Assembly (NCBI GenBank): GCA_023151255.1
Contig: JAKLJG010000005.1
Span: 19,570-77,055, forward strand
DNA from: Cyclobacteriaceae bacterium
GTDB taxonomy: Bacteria; Bacteroidota; Bacteroidia; Cytophagales; Cyclobacteriaceae
Length of the DNA: 57,486 bases
Direction of reading: 5' to 3'
In this document: positions 162 through 8,028 of the stretch, piece after piece
How the letters are laid out: each line of letters begins with the position of its first letter
Numbering within the stretch: position 1 is the first letter of the stretch
Notes under the pieces: model-generated
Told to the model about the DNA's origin: nothing
What the model saw: only the letters and a program-made list of their open reading frames with translations
Databases searched by the model: none
Program-made: the position numbers and the translations under genes

Positions 162-788
162 ATGGCCATTAACCAGGAATACGAAATTGAAGTTAGACGA
201 CTCCTGAACCAAAATAAGCGTTTTGAAGCCGTTCGCTATTTACAAAACACACTTAACGTTTCAAACACCGATGCCGACCGGCTGGTTCAGGCCGTTGAAA
301 ACGAAATTAGGCTCGAAACGCAAGAGGTCTTAAAGCCCGTTGCTGAAACAGCAAAAGGCTGCGGCAATGTGGTTATTAAGGTAATCAGTATCGGATTGGG
401 CTTCTTTGGTGTGGTGTTTATACTGATTGGCATCGGCACATACCTGCTGTTTAACTATATCGAGGCTGATGCCGTTGAAGTTCAGGGCCGCGTAGTTGAC
501 CTCCGGCCCAGCCCAAGTGGAGGCGATGGCTTCGCTCCCGTTATTGAATACGAATGGAACGGGCAAACCAAAACGCATTACAGCGAGGTGTACGCCTCCC
601 CTCCTGATTTTGAAGCCGGGCAGGTAGTACCGGTTTACGTTAACCCTTCCAACCCGGATACTGCTACCATTATCTACGAGGAAACAGGCTGGATATTCAT
701 TTCAGTTTTTGGAGGCATCGGAGCTGTGTTTATCATAATCGCCATTGTATTATTCAGGTTCGGAAAGAAAATGAACCGACCGCTTTGA
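162..788 (+). CDS. DUF3592-family membrane protein
   Basis: A 208-residue protein of unknown function. Residues 1-65 are soluble and helical, with a short segment (LLNQNKRFEAVRYLQ) like those in proteins that bind or sense partners through a small helical domain. Two hydrophobic segments follow, near residues 70-95 and 178-200. Between them lies a beta-rich extracytoplasmic domain (VQGRVVDLRPS to VYVNPSNPDTA) typical of DUF3592, whose hallmark is the conversion of a turn to YVNPxNP. It ends just before the his promoter, whose -33 element overlaps its stop codon. The family assignment is by motif; the role is not known. Confidence 0.75.
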   Translation: MAINQEYEIEVRRLLNQNKRFEAVRYLQNTLNVSNTDADRLVQAVENEIRLETQEVLKPVAETAKGCGNVVIKVISIGLGFFGVVFILIGIGTYLLFNYIEADAVEVQGRVVDLRPSPSGGDGFAPVIEYEWNGQTKTHYSEVYASPPDFEAGQVVPVYVNPSNPDTATIIYEETGWIFISVFGGIGAVFIIIAIVLFRFGKKMNRPL

Positions 789-814
789 AAATTGACTTCC
801 GTTTTGTTGCTTTG
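784..814 (+). promoter_or_regulatory. Candidate promoter of the his operon
   Basis: TTTG at 784-787 is followed after 19 bp by TTGCTTTG at 807-814. This fits the Bacteroidota primary sigma-factor promoter (TTTG, 19-21 bp, TAnnTTTG) with one mismatch in the -7 box. Transcription would then start near 820, almost on the leader peptide ATG at 823, so the attenuator transcript would have virtually no untranslated 5' end. The -33 box overlaps the stop codon of the preceding gene. Confidence 0.45.
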
Positions 815-822
815 ACACCACA

Positions 823-900
823 ATGACCAATAGAAAAAGCATAAACAATCATCACCATCATCATGTTAACACCATGTTGCGTGGCAGGTTTATGTTTTAA
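823..900 (+). CDS. hisL: Histidine operon leader peptide
   Basis: A 25-codon reading frame from ATG 823 to TAA 898-900 encodes MTNRKSINNHHHHHVNTMLR followed by GRFMF. Codons 10-14 (850-864) are five consecutive histidines (CAT CAC CAT CAT CAT). It lies directly upstream of hisG and is followed by a terminator hairpin, the arrangement of classical his leader peptides such as enterobacterial HisL. A ribosome that stalls here when charged tRNA-His is scarce should report histidine status. The peptide is unrelated in sequence to enterobacterial HisL apart from the His run. It is too short for ordinary gene callers. Confidence 0.85.
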   Translation: MTNRKSINNHHHHHVNTMLRGRFMF

Positions 901-955
901 CTGAACATTAAAGACTTTACTAAAAGGCTTGCCGCGATACCGGCAGGCCTTTTTT
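836..955 (+). promoter_or_regulatory. Histidine attenuator: competing RNA hairpins
   Basis: Three pairings are visible. Stem 1:2 pairs 836-846 with 888-898 (11 bp, one G-U), enclosing the His codons. Stem 2:3 pairs 883-891 with 925-933 (9 bp, three wobbles) and would act as antiterminator. Stem 3:4 pairs 923-934 with 941-952 (12 bp, one wobble) and is followed by a T-run, forming the terminator. Stem 2:3 excludes both others. A ribosome stalled on codons 850-864 would cover 836-846 and free segment 2; a ribosome at the stop codon would cover segment 2 and allow termination. The pairings are seen; the mechanism is inferred from known attenuators. Confidence 0.8.
923..955 (+). terminator. Attenuator terminator before hisG
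   Basis: AAAGGCTTGCCG (923-934) and CGGCAGGCCTTT (941-952) form a 12-bp stem with a six-base loop, followed by T's up to 955. It lies between the leader peptide and hisG, so read-through is needed for expression of the operon. Confidence 0.85.
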
Positions 956-970
956 GCTTTATACCGAATC

Positions 971-1846
971 ATGAATACCCATAAACAGATGAGCGAAGTT
1001 GTACGAATTGCTATTCAAAAATCAGGACGACTACAGGAAGGATCGCTGAAATTGCTTAAAGACTGCGGACTGAACATCAGCAACGGCAAAGATCAGTTGA
1101 AAACACAGGTATCCAATTTTCCTGTTGAAGTACTTTTCCTGCGCGATGATGACATCCCCCAATACATTGAAGACGGTGTGGCCGATGCCGGGATAATTGG
1201 CGAAAACGTTTTCACTGAAAAGCAGAAAAACGGGGTAATCATGAAGCGGCTCGATTTTGCGAAATGCCGCCTGGCGCTTGCCGTACCACGAACAACTAAC
1301 TATACAGGTTTAGCCTGGTTTAACGGTAAAAATATCGCCACTTCTTATCCAAACATTGTGGGCAACTACCTGAAGATGAAGAATATTACGGCAGGCATCC
1401 ACGAAATCAGCGGCTCGGTAGAAATTGCCCCCGGTATCGGCTTGGCCGATGCCATATGCGATATCGTCAGCACCGGCAGCACACTGCTCAGCAACGGCCT
1501 GAAAGAGGTAGAGCTTGTTATGCAGTCGGAAGCGGTATTGATTGCCGGTGATCTTAGTATGCAAAAAAAGAAAATTCTGGAAAAACTGGTATTCCGCATT
1601 GAAGCCGTACAGCAGGCACGAAACAACAAATACATCCTGCTTAATTGTCCCAACGAAGCCATTGAATCGATTACGCAGATTATCCCGGGCATGAAAAGCC
1701 CAACCATTTTGCCGCTAGGTAAACCAGGCTGGAGTTCCTTGCATTCGGTTGTCAACGAAAATGATTTCTGGGAAAAAATCGATCAGCTAAAACAATTGGG
1801 CGCTGAAGGGATTTTGGTAGTGCCGATTGAGAAGATGATTAAGTAG
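971..1846 (+). CDS. hisG: ATP phosphoribosyltransferase (long form)
   Basis: Catalyses the first step of histidine synthesis, joining ATP and PRPP to give phosphoribosyl-ATP. The sequence opens with the family signature (VRIAIQKSGRL), and the catalytic domain carries DDIPQYIEDGVADAGIIG and the PRPP-binding stretch DIVSTGSTLLSNGL. A C-terminal domain of about 75 residues (from ILLNCPNEA to VVPIEKMIK) is the histidine-binding regulatory domain of the long form, so no HisZ is expected. The start at 971 gives 291 residues; ATG 989 (MSEVVRIAIQ) is equally plausible and closer to the usual length. Extension further upstream would run into the terminator hairpin and is rejected. Confidence 0.95.
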   Translation: MNTHKQMSEVVRIAIQKSGRLQEGSLKLLKDCGLNISNGKDQLKTQVSNFPVEVLFLRDDDIPQYIEDGVADAGIIGENVFTEKQKNGVIMKRLDFAKCRLALAVPRTTNYTGLAWFNGKNIATSYPNIVGNYLKMKNITAGIHEISGSVEIAPGIGLADAICDIVSTGSTLLSNGLKEVELVMQSEAVLIAGDLSMQKKKILEKLVFRIEAVQQARNNKYILLNCPNEAIESITQIIPGMKSPTILPLGKPGWSSLHSVVNENDFWEKIDQLKQLGAEGILVVPIEKMIK

Positions 1847-1917: not shown

Positions 1918-3207
1918 ATGAAACTCTACAACAATCCACACCGCGATGACTGGCCACAACTTTGCGAACGCCCGCAACTGCAACTGGGGTTTCTGGAGAG
2001 TTCGGTAAACAATATCCTGGCCCGAGTTAAACAAAGTGGCGACTACGCTCTTAAAGAACTCACTGGTAAGTTCGATAATGTGGACCTGAAGGAACTTACC
2101 GTAACTCCTGACGAAATACATTATGCCGCTGCACTGGTTAAGCCGGCTCTAAAGGCTGCTATAGAAACCGCTGCATCAAACATTAAAAAATTTCATCAGG
2201 CACAATTGCCGCCAGTAATAAAAGTCGAAACAATGCCAGGTGTAACCTGCTGGAGAAAAAGCGTACCGATTGAAAAAGTTGGCATTTATATACCCGGTGG
2301 AACTGCGCCTTTATTTTCAACTGTACTCATGCTGGCCATTCCGGCTACGTTGGCGGGCTGTAACAATATTGTGCTGGTTACTCCTCCGGATAAACAGGGC
2401 CAAATCCATCCGGCCATTCTATACGCTGCACAGCTAACGGCTATAAAAAAAATTTACAAAGTCGGTGGTGCTCAAGCCATTGCTGCCCTCGCCTACGGTA
2501 CGGAAACCATTCCGAAAGTGAATAAGATTTTCGGGCCTGGTAACCAGTATGTAACCAAAGCCAAACAACTGGTTAACCAGCAAGGCACGGCTATAGATCT
2601 GCCGGCCGGCCCAAGTGAAGTGCTGATTTGGGCAGATGACTCAGCTGTGCCGGAATTTGTTGCTGCCGATCTCCTGTCGCAAGCCGAACATGGTACCGAC
2701 AGTCAGGTGATGCTGGTTGCCAACAACTCACTACTTGCTGAAAAAGTTTTTAATGAGGTTGACCGCCAGGTAACGCAATTGCCCCGTAAGGAGATTGCCG
2801 GGCTGGCACTGCAAAACAGTAGGGCGCTTATTTTTGATAACGATGATGAAGCATTGGATTTTATAAACTCCTATGCACCGGAACACCTGATTATTAACAA
2901 AGGCCAGGCCGATAAACTGGCCGAAAAAATCCGCAATGCCGGTTCGGTATTTATCGGCAACTACTCACCTGAGGCTGCCGGTGATTATGCCTCGGGAACA
3001 AATCACACCCTGCCAACCAGCGGATATGCCGCTACCTATGGCGGTGTGTCTGTCGAAAGTTTTTTAAAGCACATCACCTTTCAGGAAATCACAGAAGAGG
3101 GTATCCGGCAGGTTGGTCCGGTAGTTGAAGCGATGGCCCACGCTGAAGAATTAATCGCACACAAAAATGCTATCAGCATCAGGCTTAAGCACCTGCAAAA
3201 TCAGTAA
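1918..3207 (+). CDS. hisD: Histidinol dehydrogenase
   Basis: Performs the last two steps of histidine synthesis, oxidising L-histidinol through histidinal to L-histidine with two NAD+. At 429 residues it has the normal length. Recognisable blocks are the nucleotide-binding [21 protein letters not shown], the signature region [29 protein letters not shown], the zinc- and catalysis-associated [10 protein letters not shown], and the C-terminal [12 protein letters not shown]. It is the second operon gene, separated from hisG by a 71-bp repetitive spacer and from hisC by 16 bp. Confidence 0.97.
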
Positions 3208-3223
3208 TCTGTAACCTACTAGC

Positions 3224-4252
3224 ATGGACATACAATCGCTACTCAGAGAAAATATAAAAGCACTCACACCTTATTCCACTGCCAGGGATGACTACGAGGG
3301 AACAGCCGAAGTGTACCTGGACGCGAATGAAAATCCTTTTCCTTCGGAATACAACCGGTATCCCGATCCACACCAACGGAAGGTTAAAGAGAAAATCAGT
3401 GCGCTGAAAAATATCCCTGTAGAAAATATTTTCCTAGGTAACGGAAGCGATGAAGCTATTGATCTGATTATCCGTGCCTTTTGTGAGCCGGCAGCCGATT
3501 CCATACTTATTCCCGAACCAACGTACGGCATGTATGCCGTTTGTGCCAGCATTAATAATGTGCCTGTTAAACGGGTTTTACTTAATTCATGGTTCGATCT
3601 AGACGTAGATGCTATAAATAAAACGCTGGATGCGTCTGTTAAAATTATCTTTCTCTGCTCGCCCAACAATCCATCAGGCAATTTACTTAATAAAGAAAAG
3701 ATAAACAGTTTGATCAATACCTTTAATGGTATTGTGGTTATTGATGAAGCGTACATCGATTTTGCTGCCGATGAAGGCTTCCTTCCGGTTTTAAGCAACT
3801 ACCCCAATCTGATCGTTTTACAAACATTTTCGAAAGCCTGGGGTTTAGCAGGCCTTAGGTTGGGTTTGGCGTATGCTTCGAATGTAATCATCGCCACACT
3901 AAACAAATTAAAATACCCGTACAACATTAATTCACTTACTCAAAATACAGTACTAGAAAAACTCTCTTCTGCTGGAGTTAAAAACAGCCAGGTAAACTTA
4001 ATCATCCGGGAACGCAAAAAACTTATCGAACGCTTAGCAACCGTTTCAGAAGTAATTAGAACATACCCATCAGACGCCAACTTTGTGTTGGTAAAATTTA
4101 AAGATGCCGGCTATGTTTATAATAACCTTCTGAAGAGGAGCATCATTGTACGCGATCGATCAGCAGTGGCATTATGTGAAGGCTGCCTGCGGATAACCGT
4201 GGGCACGCCTGAAGAAAATACTAAACTTATCGAAACATTGAGAATGCTATGA
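3224..4252 (+). CDS. hisC: Histidinol-phosphate aminotransferase
   Basis: A PLP-dependent class I/II aminotransferase converting imidazole-acetol phosphate plus glutamate to histidinol phosphate. The 342 residues include [10 protein letters not shown] near the N-terminus, the cofactor-contacting CSPNNPSGN and DEAYIDF, and the PLP lysine in [14 protein letters not shown]. It overlaps hisB by 4 bp (ATGA), suggesting translational coupling. Confidence 0.96.
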
Positions 4253-5364
4253 AACGTGTATTGTTTATTGATCGCGATGGAACCCTGATAATCGAACCAC
4301 CTGACGAGCAAATTGACAGCCTGGAAAAGCTGGAATTCTATCCGGGCGTTATCCGGTGGCTCGGTCAGCTTGTGAACGAGACGGATTATGAGTTGGTGAT
4401 GGTTACCAACCAGGACGGCTTGGGAACTGACCGGTTCCCTGAAGCCGCATTCTGGCCGGCACACAATAAAATGATCAAGACATTAGAAGGCGAAGGAATT
4501 AAGTTCTCAAAAGTTTTTATCGATCGCTCATTTGCGCACGAGAACAAACCTACCCGAAAGCCAGGAACCGCCATGCTTACGGAATTCCTGACAGAAAATT
4601 ATGACATAGCCAACTCGTATGTTATTGGCGACCGGCTGACGGATGTTGAACTCGCTTTTAACCTGGGATGCAAGGCCATCCTGATAAACAACGGATCACT
4701 GAGCCAGAAGCTTCACGCAGCGCCCTATTCAAGCGTAGCACAATTAGTTACAACCGACTGGAAAACTATTTACGAATTTCTTTTAAAACCCTTGCGCACG
4801 GCAACCCTTGCACGCAAAACCAGAGAAACTGAAATTACAGTTACACTAAATATTGATGGCAGCGGCAAATCATCTATTCACACCGGCATAGGCTTTTTCG
4901 ATCACATGCTGGAACAACTGGCAAAACATGGAAATATTGACCTGCAAATTCAGGTTCAGGGCGATCTGCACGTAGATGAACACCATACCATTGAAGACAC
5001 CGCCCTTGTGCTGGGCGAAGCATTTTATAAAGCACTGGGAACCAAGCTTGGTATTGAACGATACGGATTTGTTTTACCAATGGACGATTGCCTAGCACAA
5101 GTAGCCATCGACTTTGGCGGAAGGCCCTGGCTGATTTGGGAAGCAGCGTTCAAGCGCGAGAAAATCGGTGAGATGCCAACGGAAATGTTCTATCATTTTT
5201 TTAAATCATTTTCTGATACAGCAAGGTGTAACCTGAATATTAAGGCCGAAGGAACAAATGAGCATCATAAAATAGAAGCCATTTTCAAAGCATTTGCAAA
5301 GGCTTTGCGCATGGCCGTAAAACGAAATGGAAATGACTTGCCTACCACTAAAGGAACATTTTAA
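4249..5364 (+). CDS. hisB: Bifunctional histidinol-phosphatase / imidazoleglycerol-phosphate dehydratase
   Basis: A fusion of two enzymes of the pathway. Residues 1-170 form a HAD-type histidinol phosphatase, with the DxDGT motif in FIDRDGTL and the later motifs VTNQDG and KPGTAM and GDRLTD. Residues about 180-371 form the imidazoleglycerol-phosphate dehydratase domain, with the metal-binding motifs DEHHTIEDT and NEHHKIEA and the signature [11 protein letters not shown]. Fused HisB is common in enterobacteria and many Bacteroidota. It starts inside the end of hisC and is followed 5 bp later by hisH. Confidence 0.96.
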
Positions 5365-5369
5365 TATAA

Positions 5370-5957
5370 ATGAGAATAGCTGTAATAAAATATAATGCCG
5401 GCAACATTCAGTCGGTAGCCTATGCGCTGGAACGGCTTGACGTCAGGTTTAGTATAACTGACAACCCGGAAGAAATTGCATCGGCTGATAAAGTAATTTT
5501 CCCCGGTGTAGGCCAGGCGCAAACTACAATGCGGTATTTACGTGAACAGAAATTAGATGAAGTAATCCGTACACTTCAACAGCCAGTATTAGGCATTTGC
5601 CTCGGCATGCAACTGATGTGCCGGTTCTCGGAAGAAGGCTCAACAGAATGCCTGGGAATATTTGATGAAACCGTAAAGCGTTTTCTGACCAATGCGCAAC
5701 ATAACGTACCACACATGGGCTGGAATCAGGTTGAATTCACTAATAACGAAATAGGCCCGTTCATGCAGCCCGCAAACTTTTACTTTGTTCATAGCTATTA
5801 TGTGCCTGTAAATAAATACACCATCGCACAGTGTCATTACGGGCAGCCTTTCAGCGCCATGATGCGAAAGAACAACTTTTTAGCTGTGCAGTTCCATCCG
5901 GAAAAATCAGCTCAAACCGGTGACCATATTTTGCGCTATTTTCTACACGCGTTTTAG
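5370..5957 (+). CDS. hisH: Imidazole glycerol phosphate synthase, glutaminase subunit
   Basis: A class I glutamine amidotransferase of 195 residues that supplies ammonia to HisF. The nucleophilic cysteine is in VLGICLGMQLM, and the His-Glu pair of the triad is in QFHPEKS near the C-terminus. The N-terminal IAVIKYNAGNIQSV is the usual family opening. It sits between hisB and hisA with spacers of 5 and 8 bp. Confidence 0.96.
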   Translation: MRIAVIKYNAGNIQSVAYALERLDVRFSITDNPEEIASADKVIFPGVGQAQTTMRYLREQKLDEVIRTLQQPVLGICLGMQLMCRFSEEGSTECLGIFDETVKRFLTNAQHNVPHMGWNQVEFTNNEIGPFMQPANFYFVHSYYVPVNKYTIAQCHYGQPFSAMMRKNNFLAVQFHPEKSAQTGDHILRYFLHAF

Positions 5958-5965
5958 TTATTGCT

Positions 5966-6688
5966 ATGAAAATGAAAATCATACCCGCAATTGATATCGT
6001 CAACGGAAAATGCGTTCGCCTTGTTCAGGGCAACTTCAGCAAAGTAACTGTGTATAGCAAAGATCCTGTTGAAGTTGCCCGTCAGTTCGAAGAAGACGGA
6101 TTTGAATACCTGCACCTGGTTGACCTTGACGGTGCCCGGCTGGGCAGAATAACAAACTGGAAGGTAATTGAGAAGATAGCCGGTAAAACTGCCCTAAAAA
6201 CCGATTTTGGCGGTGGTGTGCATACAGAAGAAGAAATTGAACGACTGATGGGTTTAGGCGTTGAGTATATCAATATTGGAAGTTTGGCCATTCGGCAACC
6301 CGATACGTTTACCACCTGGCTGAATAAATTTGGCTCCGATAATTTTATCCTAAGCGCTGACGTTCAGCATGAAATGATAAAAGTTTCAGGCTGGCAGGAA
6401 GAGGCCGGCATTTCGGTTTTTGATCTGATCAGAAAATTCAAGACTGTGCGGCATGTAACCTGCACCGACATCAGCACAGATGGCATGTTAAACGGACCGA
6501 ACATTGCACTTTATAAAAAGCTAAAAATAAAATTCCCTAACCTGGGTATCATCGCCAGTGGTGGAATCAGCACGGCCGATGATGTTGAGGAACTGAATTA
6601 CCTGAAACTGGAGGGCGCTATCATCGGAAAAGCCCTGTATGAAAAAAAGATAACAGCCGAACAGTTAAAAAACCGAAACTTATTGTAA
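5966..6688 (+). CDS. hisA: ProFAR isomerase
   Basis: 1-(5-phosphoribosyl)-5-[(5-phosphoribosylamino)methylideneamino]imidazole-4-carboxamide isomerase, a half-barrel-duplicated TIM barrel of 240 residues. The first catalytic aspartate is in IPAIDIVNGKCVRL, and phosphate-binding glycines are in FGGGVHTEEE and IASGGISTADD. The stop codon is immediately followed by the hisF start (6689), with no spacer. The first two codons offer alternative starts (MKMK); 5972 is possible. Confidence 0.95.
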   Translation: MKMKIIPAIDIVNGKCVRLVQGNFSKVTVYSKDPVEVARQFEEDGFEYLHLVDLDGARLGRITNWKVIEKIAGKTALKTDFGGGVHTEEEIERLMGLGVEYINIGSLAIRQPDTFTTWLNKFGSDNFILSADVQHEMIKVSGWQEEAGISVFDLIRKFKTVRHVTCTDISTDGMLNGPNIALYKKLKIKFPNLGIIASGGISTADDVEELNYLKLEGAIIGKALYEKKITAEQLKNRNLL

Positions 6689-7444
6689 ATGCTTACTAAA
6701 CGCATAATCCCCTGCCTCGATGTAAAGGGTGGTCAAACCGTTAAAGGTATCAACTTCAGCAACCTGCGCAATGCAGGCGACCCGGTTGAATTAGCTGCTC
6801 TATATGCTAACCAAGGAGCCGATGAACTTGTTTTTCTGGATATTTCGGCTACGCAGGAAGTGCGCAAAACAATGAGCAAATGGGTAAAGGATGTTGCGCG
6901 CCAAATCAACATTCCGTTCACCGTTGGCGGAGGTATTGCAGCCGTGCATGACGTTGCTGCACTCCTGGAGGCCGGAGCCGATAAGGTAAGCATCAATTCA
7001 GCAGCCGTACGTAATCCAAACCTGATAAATGAATTGGCAAACCACTTCGGCTCGCAATGCATTGTGCTGGCTATCGATGCACGAAAAATTCATAATACCT
7101 GGGTAGTTCATACGCATGGCGGTAAAAACCCGACTGACAAAAGACTTTTCAGTTGGGCGAAAGAGGGGCAGGAACGCGGTGCCGGTGAAATATTATTTAC
7201 CAGCATGGACCACGATGGCACAAAAAACGGGTTTGCCCTTGACCCGCTTGAAAAACTTCACCACCTGCTTACCATTCCGGTAATCGCCTCAGGCGGTGCC
7301 GGCACGATGGGGCATTTTGCCGATGTGTTTGCATTGGCTAAGGCCGATGGCGCACTGGCGGCCAGCGTATTCCATTTTGGCGAAATCAGCATACCCGAAT
7401 TGAAAATTTTCCTGCAAAACCACCAAATTCCCGTCCGCCTATGA
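6689..7444 (+). CDS. hisF: Imidazole glycerol phosphate synthase, cyclase subunit
   Basis: A TIM-barrel cyclase of 251 residues that uses HisH-derived ammonia to make imidazole glycerol phosphate and AICAR. The catalytic aspartates lie in [15 protein letters not shown] and VLAIDARK. Phosphate-binding loops TVGGGI and ASGGAG are present. It overlaps hisIE by 4 bp, again suggesting coupling. Confidence 0.96.
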
Positions 7445-8028
7445 AACCCGATTTTTCTAAAAACAACGGATTAATACCCTGTATCATTCAGGATTATCGC
7501 ACACACCATGTGTTAATGCTGGGTTACATGAATGAAGAAGCCTGGCGTAAAACACAAACCGAACAACGGGTAACGTTTTTTAGTCGTTCAAAAAACAGGC
7601 TCTGGACAAAGGGCGAGACTTCCGGAAATTTTCTTGATGTAGTTGATATGATTACTGATTGCGATAAGGATACACTGCTGATTAAAGTAAAACCAGCAGG
7701 ACCCGTATGCCATACCGGTAACGATACCTGCTTTGGTGAACCAAATAAAGTGTTTAATCTTAGCGTACTTCAAGAAGTTATTCTGTCGAGAAAGGCACAT
7801 CCTGAAGAAACATCATACACCGCGGCATTATTCCGGGCCGGCATTAATAAAATAGCCCAAAAGGTTGGTGAAGAAGCCGTAGAGCTGGTTATTGAAGCTA
7901 AAGATGCCGATGACACCCGATTTCTAAACGAAGCGGCTGATTTACTATACCACTACCTGGTATTATTGGTTGCACGGAATAAAACAATTACCGATGTGGA
8001 GCAGGTACTGAAAGAGCGGCATCGCTGA
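7441..8028 (+). CDS. hisIE: Bifunctional phosphoribosyl-AMP cyclohydrolase / phosphoribosyl-ATP pyrophosphatase
   Basis: A fused enzyme for steps 2 and 3 of histidine synthesis. Residues 1-105 are the HisI cyclohydrolase, with [11 protein letters not shown], the metal-binding DCDKDTLL and [11 protein letters not shown]. Residues about 112-195 are the all-alpha HisE pyrophosphohydrolase, with [13 protein letters not shown] and NEAADLLYH. It is the last gene of the operon. No strong terminator follows; an AT-rich 81-bp spacer separates it from the next gene. Confidence 0.96.

Follow-up and report, generated by a model that had tools for sequence, protein, structure and literature searches.

The window analysed here, a stretch of 57,486 nucleotides from a Cyclobacteriaceae bacterium, contains a his operon that is complete downstream of a short, His-rich open reading frame (ORF), as judged from NCBIfam matches within the window. 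The coordinates of the leader, its stems and the genes are collected in Table 1. The leader ORF opens with an ATG at 823 and closes with a TAA stop codon at 898–900, giving a product of 25 residues, and the five consecutive His codons that the first-pass annotation had placed at 850–864, in a 25-residue leader ahead of hisG, are correctly read in the window. hisG itself probably starts at the ATG at 989, the in-frame upstream ATG at 971 being the less likely choice because the ATG of close relatives lies near the position of 989. Directly upstream of the leader lies an ORF of 208 residues (162–788) that runs at its 3′ end into the candidate −33 element and that gave no NCBIfam match at E ≤ 0.001.

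Table 1. Features of the his leader region and operon in the window.
Feature	Position	Strand	Remarks
Candidate −33 element, TTTG	784–787	+	Separated by 19 nt from the −7 box; weak by itself
Candidate −7 box, TTGCTTTG	807–814	+	Bacteroidota-type; 5/6 against TAnnTTTG; ends 8 nt before the ATG
Leader peptide ORF	823–900	+	25 codons and a stop codon; MTNRKSINNHHHHHVNTMLRGRFMF; His-rich leader kept in relatives
Region 1, protector stem 5′ arm	836–846	+	Pairs with 888–898; 77.6% of cells paired in relatives; loses at equilibrium
Five consecutive His codons (putative sensing site)	850–864	+	Third positions alone vary in ten genus members
Region 2, antiterminator 5′ arm	880–891	+	12 bp with 925–936; complementarity p = 0.001
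Protector stem 3′ arm	888–898	+	Pairs with 836–846
Region 3, intrinsic terminator 5′ arm	922–934	+	13 bp with 941–953; 96.5% paired in relatives
Antiterminator 3′ arm	925–936	+	Overlaps the terminator 5′ arm
Region 4, terminator 3′ arm	941–953	+	Pairs with 922–934
Terminator T tract	950–955	+	Read in the sequence; partly within the stem
hisG (ATP phosphoribosyltransferase)	989–1846	+	TIGR00070, 193.6 bits against a cut-off of 75.75
Remainder of his operon: hisD, hisC, hisB (bifunctional), hisH, hisA, hisF, hisIE	1918–8028	+	NCBIfam match above cut-off for each

Three stems had been drawn in this leader beforehand, and all three exist in the sequence, two of them with adjusted limits. The protector stem 836–846/888–898 forms with 11 of 11 pairs, exactly as claimed. 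The antiterminator, put at nine base pairs (883–891/925–933), has all nine but is longer than stated, running to 12 bp at 880–891/925–936, and the terminator, put at 12 bp (923–934/941–952), is present with its T tract but has one pair more, 13 in all, at 922–934/941–953. Folding of the segment 820–960, which the first-pass annotation had recommended, gave −37.2 kcal/mol (z = −4.09), with 0 of 200 dinucleotide shuffles folding as low. The terminator hairpin (−20.2 kcal/mol) is the sole terminator-like site in 600–1100, where 0.3 were expected, and the complementarity between the leader and the terminator in the window reached p = 0.001 over 1,000 shuffles.

The conservation of this arrangement was examined at hisG loci gathered from relatives, from the family and from the phylum, together with named contigs, the phylum sample being restricted to genomes at least 90% complete. 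A hisG match was present in 258 distinct genomes, 203 of which were examined; with 20 named contigs these made 223 loci, and 221 after L040 and L050 were dropped for having fewer than 250 nt upstream. The 55 genomes left out were 52 of the phylum sample, mostly those with the most divergent HisG, along with G013, whose hisG match came in two pieces, and G067 and G098, whose hisG lies near a contig end. A leader ORF was counted as His-rich if it lay no more than 450 nt from the hisG match and contained three or more consecutive His residues, or four among six. By this rule 163 of the 221 loci carried one, compared with 1 of 221 when the opposite strand of these stretches was read, and the same rule applied to other amino acids reached at most 46 of 221 (leucine). 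A looser rule gave 178 leaders against 2 on the reverse strand, recovering 15 of the 58 loci that had no His leader by the strict criterion; no His leader was found at the nine most divergent HisG loci examined (L215–L223). By kinship, His leaders were present at 16/16 loci of the genus, 78/109 of the family, 4/8 of the order, 26/27 of the class, 15/18 of the named contigs, and 24/43 of the rest of the phylum; the phylum fraction is probably biased upwards because the genomes left out were mostly those with the most divergent HisG. A strict terminator followed 88 of the 163 leaders (0/163 in shuffled segments) and was absent after 75, while a relaxed one followed 111 of the 163 (15 in shuffles). 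These counts bear on one rival reading, namely that the hairpin is a mere terminator between two transcription units and the His-rich ORF a chance or non-regulatory neighbor. Such a reading would suit the strength of the hairpin and the upstream ORF that ends just before the leader, at 788, but a His run and a leader–terminator complementarity recur across hisG loci, with reverse-strand and shuffle controls far lower, and we regard this reading as highly improbable.

In the genus of the window, both the His leader and the terminator were found at 16 of 16 examined hisG loci. Among ten equal-length leaders of this genus, the five His codons vary in third positions only (3 columns), whereas over the whole ORF the three codon positions vary alike (8, 8 and 9 columns), which argues that the His codons are kept as protein. 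Loss of the His run or of the stems in relatives had been named in advance as the outcome that would speak against an attenuator, and the comparison instead came out in its favor, with the run kept at 16/16 loci and the stems kept as well. Several genus members also carry palindromic insertions between the terminator and hisG, of the CCCCTCTCC...GGAGAGG type in L006–L010 and of a different, CTTCGACAGGCTCAGGCTTCGG type in L003 and L005; these insertions lengthen the leader-to-hisG distance and are absent from the window.

A promoter scan of 600–1100 found no sigma-70 promoter in the window. The candidate −7 box is of the Bacteroidota type, and since TAnnTTTG is placed at −12 to −5 in Flavobacterium psychrophilum (PMC9723704), the box at 807–814 predicts a transcription start near 819, four bases before the ATG. 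The promoter proposed earlier, with its start almost on the leader ATG, agrees with this predicted start, but its −7 box is off consensus, being without the A of TAnnTTTG. As box counts vary with the in-frame ATG that is chosen, only the 118 leaders with a single in-frame ATG before the His codons were kept for a wider survey. An exact TAnnTTTG ended 3–12 nt before the ATG in 33 of these 118 leaders (shuffles: mean 1.2, maximum 4), and a box of 5/6 or better stood at that distance in 63 (shuffles: mean 18.75, maximum 29); other exact boxes lay farther upstream, and many of the 118 leaders were without any. Combined with the placement reported for F. psychrophilum (PMC9723704), the 33 exact boxes predict starts within about 8 bases of the ATG. 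In that species the median 5′ untranslated region (UTR) is 24 bp and leaderless mRNAs amount to 5.5% (PMC9723704).

The stems were further assessed in alignment A1, which comprises 33 leaders of the window's group, 31 of them distinct. For the terminator, pairing holds in 96.5% of cells, and 14 cells at 5 pairs show two-sided change, a level that 0 of 500 shuffles matched, although different pair types are no more numerous than in shuffles, 488 of 500 being as high. For the nine-pair antiterminator 883–891/925–933, 90.0% of cells are paired, compared with 33–56% when the arms are slid by one to three columns and with 89.4% after dealing the letters anew (24 of 500 as high); its covariation is thin, with two-sided change in 2 cells (9 of 500 shuffles as high), possibly because a stretch bound to pair with two partners has little room to change. 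In the protector stem, 77.6% of cells are paired (0 of 500 shuffles as high) and 8 show two-sided change (8 of 500). Compensatory changes, which had been sought in all three stems, are therefore clear for the terminator but few for the antiterminator and the protector stem.

A separate test, run leader by leader, compared the spacer between the His run and the terminator with shuffled spacers for complementarity to the terminator 5′ side. Significant complementarity (p ≤ 0.05) was found in 77 of the 88 terminator-bearing leaders, 31 of 33 in the window's group and 46 of 55 elsewhere, with arms extended by five bases towards the loop and three upstream, a design adopted after the result of a first version, in which arms cut short at the loop gave 11 of 88, was known. 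The antiterminator arms differ by lineage, containing GGCAGG in the window's group and CTCAGGCGA or CTCAAGCGA in several loci of the same class, and yet they pair, so that complementarity is kept while the sequence changes. The conserved C-terminus of the peptide, GRF in the window's group and QAR-like in several same-class loci, may accordingly be a by-product of the antiterminator arm. This pattern also weighs on the possibility that the leader is real but that control is mainly translational, or is exerted in trans by the released peptide or a short RNA in the manner of peTrpL of Sinorhizobium meliloti. Roles in trans have been described for leader peptides (PMC7298713), and some relatives keep a His leader without a strict intrinsic terminator; against this, the terminator is retained at all 16 examined genus loci, the antiterminator arm pairs with the terminator 5′ side, and the first residues of the peptide vary, which gives no hint of a product acting in trans. 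We therefore consider such control very unlikely as the main mechanism at this locus.

The geometry of the leader was examined by equilibrium folding of RNA masked up to the 3′ edge of a ribosome, with that edge set at A site +12 or +15. In RNA ending at 940, the antiterminator has a probability of 0.91 for A sites on codons 1–15, of 0.67 at codon 17 (+12) or codon 16 (+15), and of zero from codon 18 (+12) or 17 (+15) up to the stop codon. The His codons are leader codons 10–14 and lie inside the range that permits the antiterminator; in the stricter case they end one codon before the last fully free position, as the classical model needs. By the computed positions, the antiterminator arm is free while the ribosome is on the His codons and covered once it nears the stop codon. 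Once the RNA extends to 960, the terminator prevails whatever the ribosome position (0.95–0.97), which implies that the choice between antiterminator and terminator must fall during transcription. Without a ribosome, the protector stem has a probability of 0.98 in RNA ending at 912 and of 0.02 at 940, where the antiterminator, at 0.89, beats it; the folds thus separate an advanced from a stalled ribosome, not a stalled ribosome from none. The protector stem is the weakest element, which may act kinetically or not at all, and a role as an extra brake when the leader is not translated is possible but not well supported. A choice among the stems by ribosome position, as in classical his attenuation, had been proposed from the first inspection, and it stands in that the geometry fits and the His run and stems are kept, with the reservation that the protector stem loses at equilibrium and is paired in only 77.6% of cells. 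The sequence and its comparison with relatives show the ORF with its His run, the two stems that compete, the conservation of these parts and this geometry.

Taken together, these findings make it very probable that the his operon is governed by a ribosome-mediated transcription attenuator. RNA polymerase would start a few bases 5′ of the leader ATG, and a ribosome would immediately enter the 25-codon leader. Under a shortage of charged tRNA-His, this ribosome would stall with a His codon (850–864) in its A site and leave 880–891 free to pair with the emerging 925–936, so that the terminator would be blocked and hisGDCBHAFIE transcribed. When tRNA-His is charged, the ribosome would instead reach the stop codon at 898–900 and cover 880–891, and the terminator 922–934/941–953 with its T tract would halt transcription before hisG. 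The site of the transcription start, the stalling itself, the efficiency of termination and the response to histidine are what we infer in this scheme. The first-pass observation as a whole is confirmed almost to the base, and its interpretation is supported.

A different form of His leader was found elsewhere in the collection. Leaders of the HHxHHS pattern occur at 27 of the 221 loci, with a strict terminator at none of them, and 23 of these 27 loci, including L108, L118, L120, L129, L137 and L147, were brought together in alignment A2. The A2 peptides end in HHxHHSS, the His codons thereby ending the peptide, and in folds of five HHxHHS loci the loop of a roughly 7-bp hairpin, TTCCTCC-TRA-GGAGGAA, holds the stop codon. 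On the 3′ side of this stop hairpin comes a conserved ACATATCGCCC stretch, followed in most loci by a GGCTGT/ACAGCC hairpin; a T tract is absent. Of 118 family genomes, 14 contain the exact 17-base palindrome TTCCTCC-TAA-GGAGGAA, each as a single copy, whose coordinates in all 14 place it some 97 to 110 bases ahead of the hisG match. Inspection by eye revealed no convincing alternative-pairing switch in these terminator-less (type B) leaders. It is conceivable, although we would not favor it at present, that hisG is commonly controlled by His leaders across much of Bacteroidota, a sizeable share of them on nearly leaderless transcripts that load a ribosome as they emerge, and that one lineage (HHxHHS) has replaced the terminator by another output. 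If this were true, the HHxHHS lineage would possess a his attenuator with a different read-out, translational or factor-dependent; the terminator-less form raises the question of a different output for the same sensor.

Leaders for other amino acids, built on the same plan as the his leader, were found in the genome that carries the window, and the two described here were examined in this one genome. A Phe/Tyr-rich leader, MFNNTWFYFYYFFFQPFTGIERRVICC, precedes a prephenate dehydratase (pheA-type) gene (L225 from position 1277, C22), and a Trp leader, MKGITNTAWWWHISGFDM, precedes a trpE-type gene with a Pfam Chorismate_bind match (L229 from position 749, C2). Each is followed by a strong hairpin, GC-rich in the case of trpE, with a five-T tail, and both fail the six-T test; the complementarity between spacer and terminator reached p = 0.004 for pheA and p = 0.005 for trpE. 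This organism thus probably relies on leader-peptide attenuation more than once, and the his, trpE and pheA leaders together suggest attenuation as a general control of amino-acid synthesis here. Scanning two of the three aspartokinase matches (L226 and L227) gave no convincing Thr leader, and acetolactate synthase had only a weak, sub-cut-off match in this genome. A palindromic insertion also follows the pheA terminator at L225.

Comparison with Rfam returned no family, T-box included, at its gathering score in the window. Thirteen weak matches were obtained at E ≤ 10 in 600–1200, of which the best were leader families and none a T-box. The His_leader family RF00514 scored 24.2 bits against a gathering score of 49 in the window, and none of 39 relatives had a match above its cut-off; sub-threshold matches turned up in 3 of the 39, in no case on the contig of hisG. 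Similarly, the Bacteroid-trp family RF01692 scored 21.7 bits against a gathering score of 49 in the window, had no match at E ≤ 0.001 in the 39 relatives, and gave no match in the window's own genome despite the Trp leader at L229; at E ≤ 0.05, Rfam matched none of 14 selected related leader loci. An annotation based on Rfam would therefore miss the his leader of the window. The same searches address the idea that histidine is sensed by a riboswitch, a T-box or a bound repressor, the leader ORF being incidental. In Firmicutes, his genes are indeed under the control of T-boxes and HisR (PMC9413887), and the one riboswitch model among the 13 weak matches, SAM_alpha, lies at 884–943 (11.4 bits against a gathering score of 36, E = 8.6), but with no family at its gathering score in the window, no T-box at E ≤ 10 in 600–1200, and leader families as the best of the weak matches there, we give this idea almost no credence.

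Among the matches listed in a search of the open-licence literature, no paper on his attenuators in Cytophagales was recognized by title or abstract. Older comparative studies of attenuation by Vitreschak and colleagues in 2004, Lopatovskaya and colleagues in 2010, and Naville and Gautheret in 2010 may already list Bacteroidota cases. In an article on the his genes of this superphylum, the word "leader" is absent and "attenuat" occurs once, with reference to enterobacteria (PMC8305728). For F. psychrophilum, strong clues to leader-peptide attenuation upstream of amino-acid operons have been described, along with a conserved structured element upstream of hisG in Flavobacteriaceae that is without an Rfam hit (PMC9723704). 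That element concerns the same phylum and the same gene and is named without a peptide or stems in the section devoted to it, while the same-class loci examined here share the plan of the window's leader with other arm sequences. Shine-Dalgarno sequences are noted as absent in the phylum (PMC9723704), and what began as a guess by eye is now a conserved and testable regulatory element in such a phylum. Bacteroid-trp (RF01692) is likewise a leader-peptide RNA family of Bacteroidetes, for Trp and not for His.

In E. coli, the his leader consists of a leader peptide with His codons and of alternative antiterminator and terminator structures. The window's leader resembles this proteobacterial leader (RF00514; E. 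coli, Salmonella) in the run of His codons before hisG, the antiterminator and intrinsic terminator, and the same inferred logic, and it differs in sequence, in a predicted 5′ UTR of about four bases, and in its weak protector stem. The his attenuators of Firmicutes, reported from 17 genomes with three to five consecutive His codons, a terminator and an antiterminator (PMC9413887), have the same parts in another phylum. A transcript that begins at the leader ATG is known for the trpL attenuator (rnTrpL) of S. meliloti (PMC7298713), and the ilvBNC attenuator of Corynebacterium glutamicum has been discussed as leaderless (PMC11857589), both in other phyla and for other amino acids. Compact, near-leaderless attenuation outside proteobacteria, which had first been singled out as special, is therefore unique in neither respect, a Bacteroidota case having been suggested before (PMC9723704) and leaderless attenuators being known (PMC7298713). 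The mechanism is thus a known one, and the leader of the window is a well-supported new example of this classic control.
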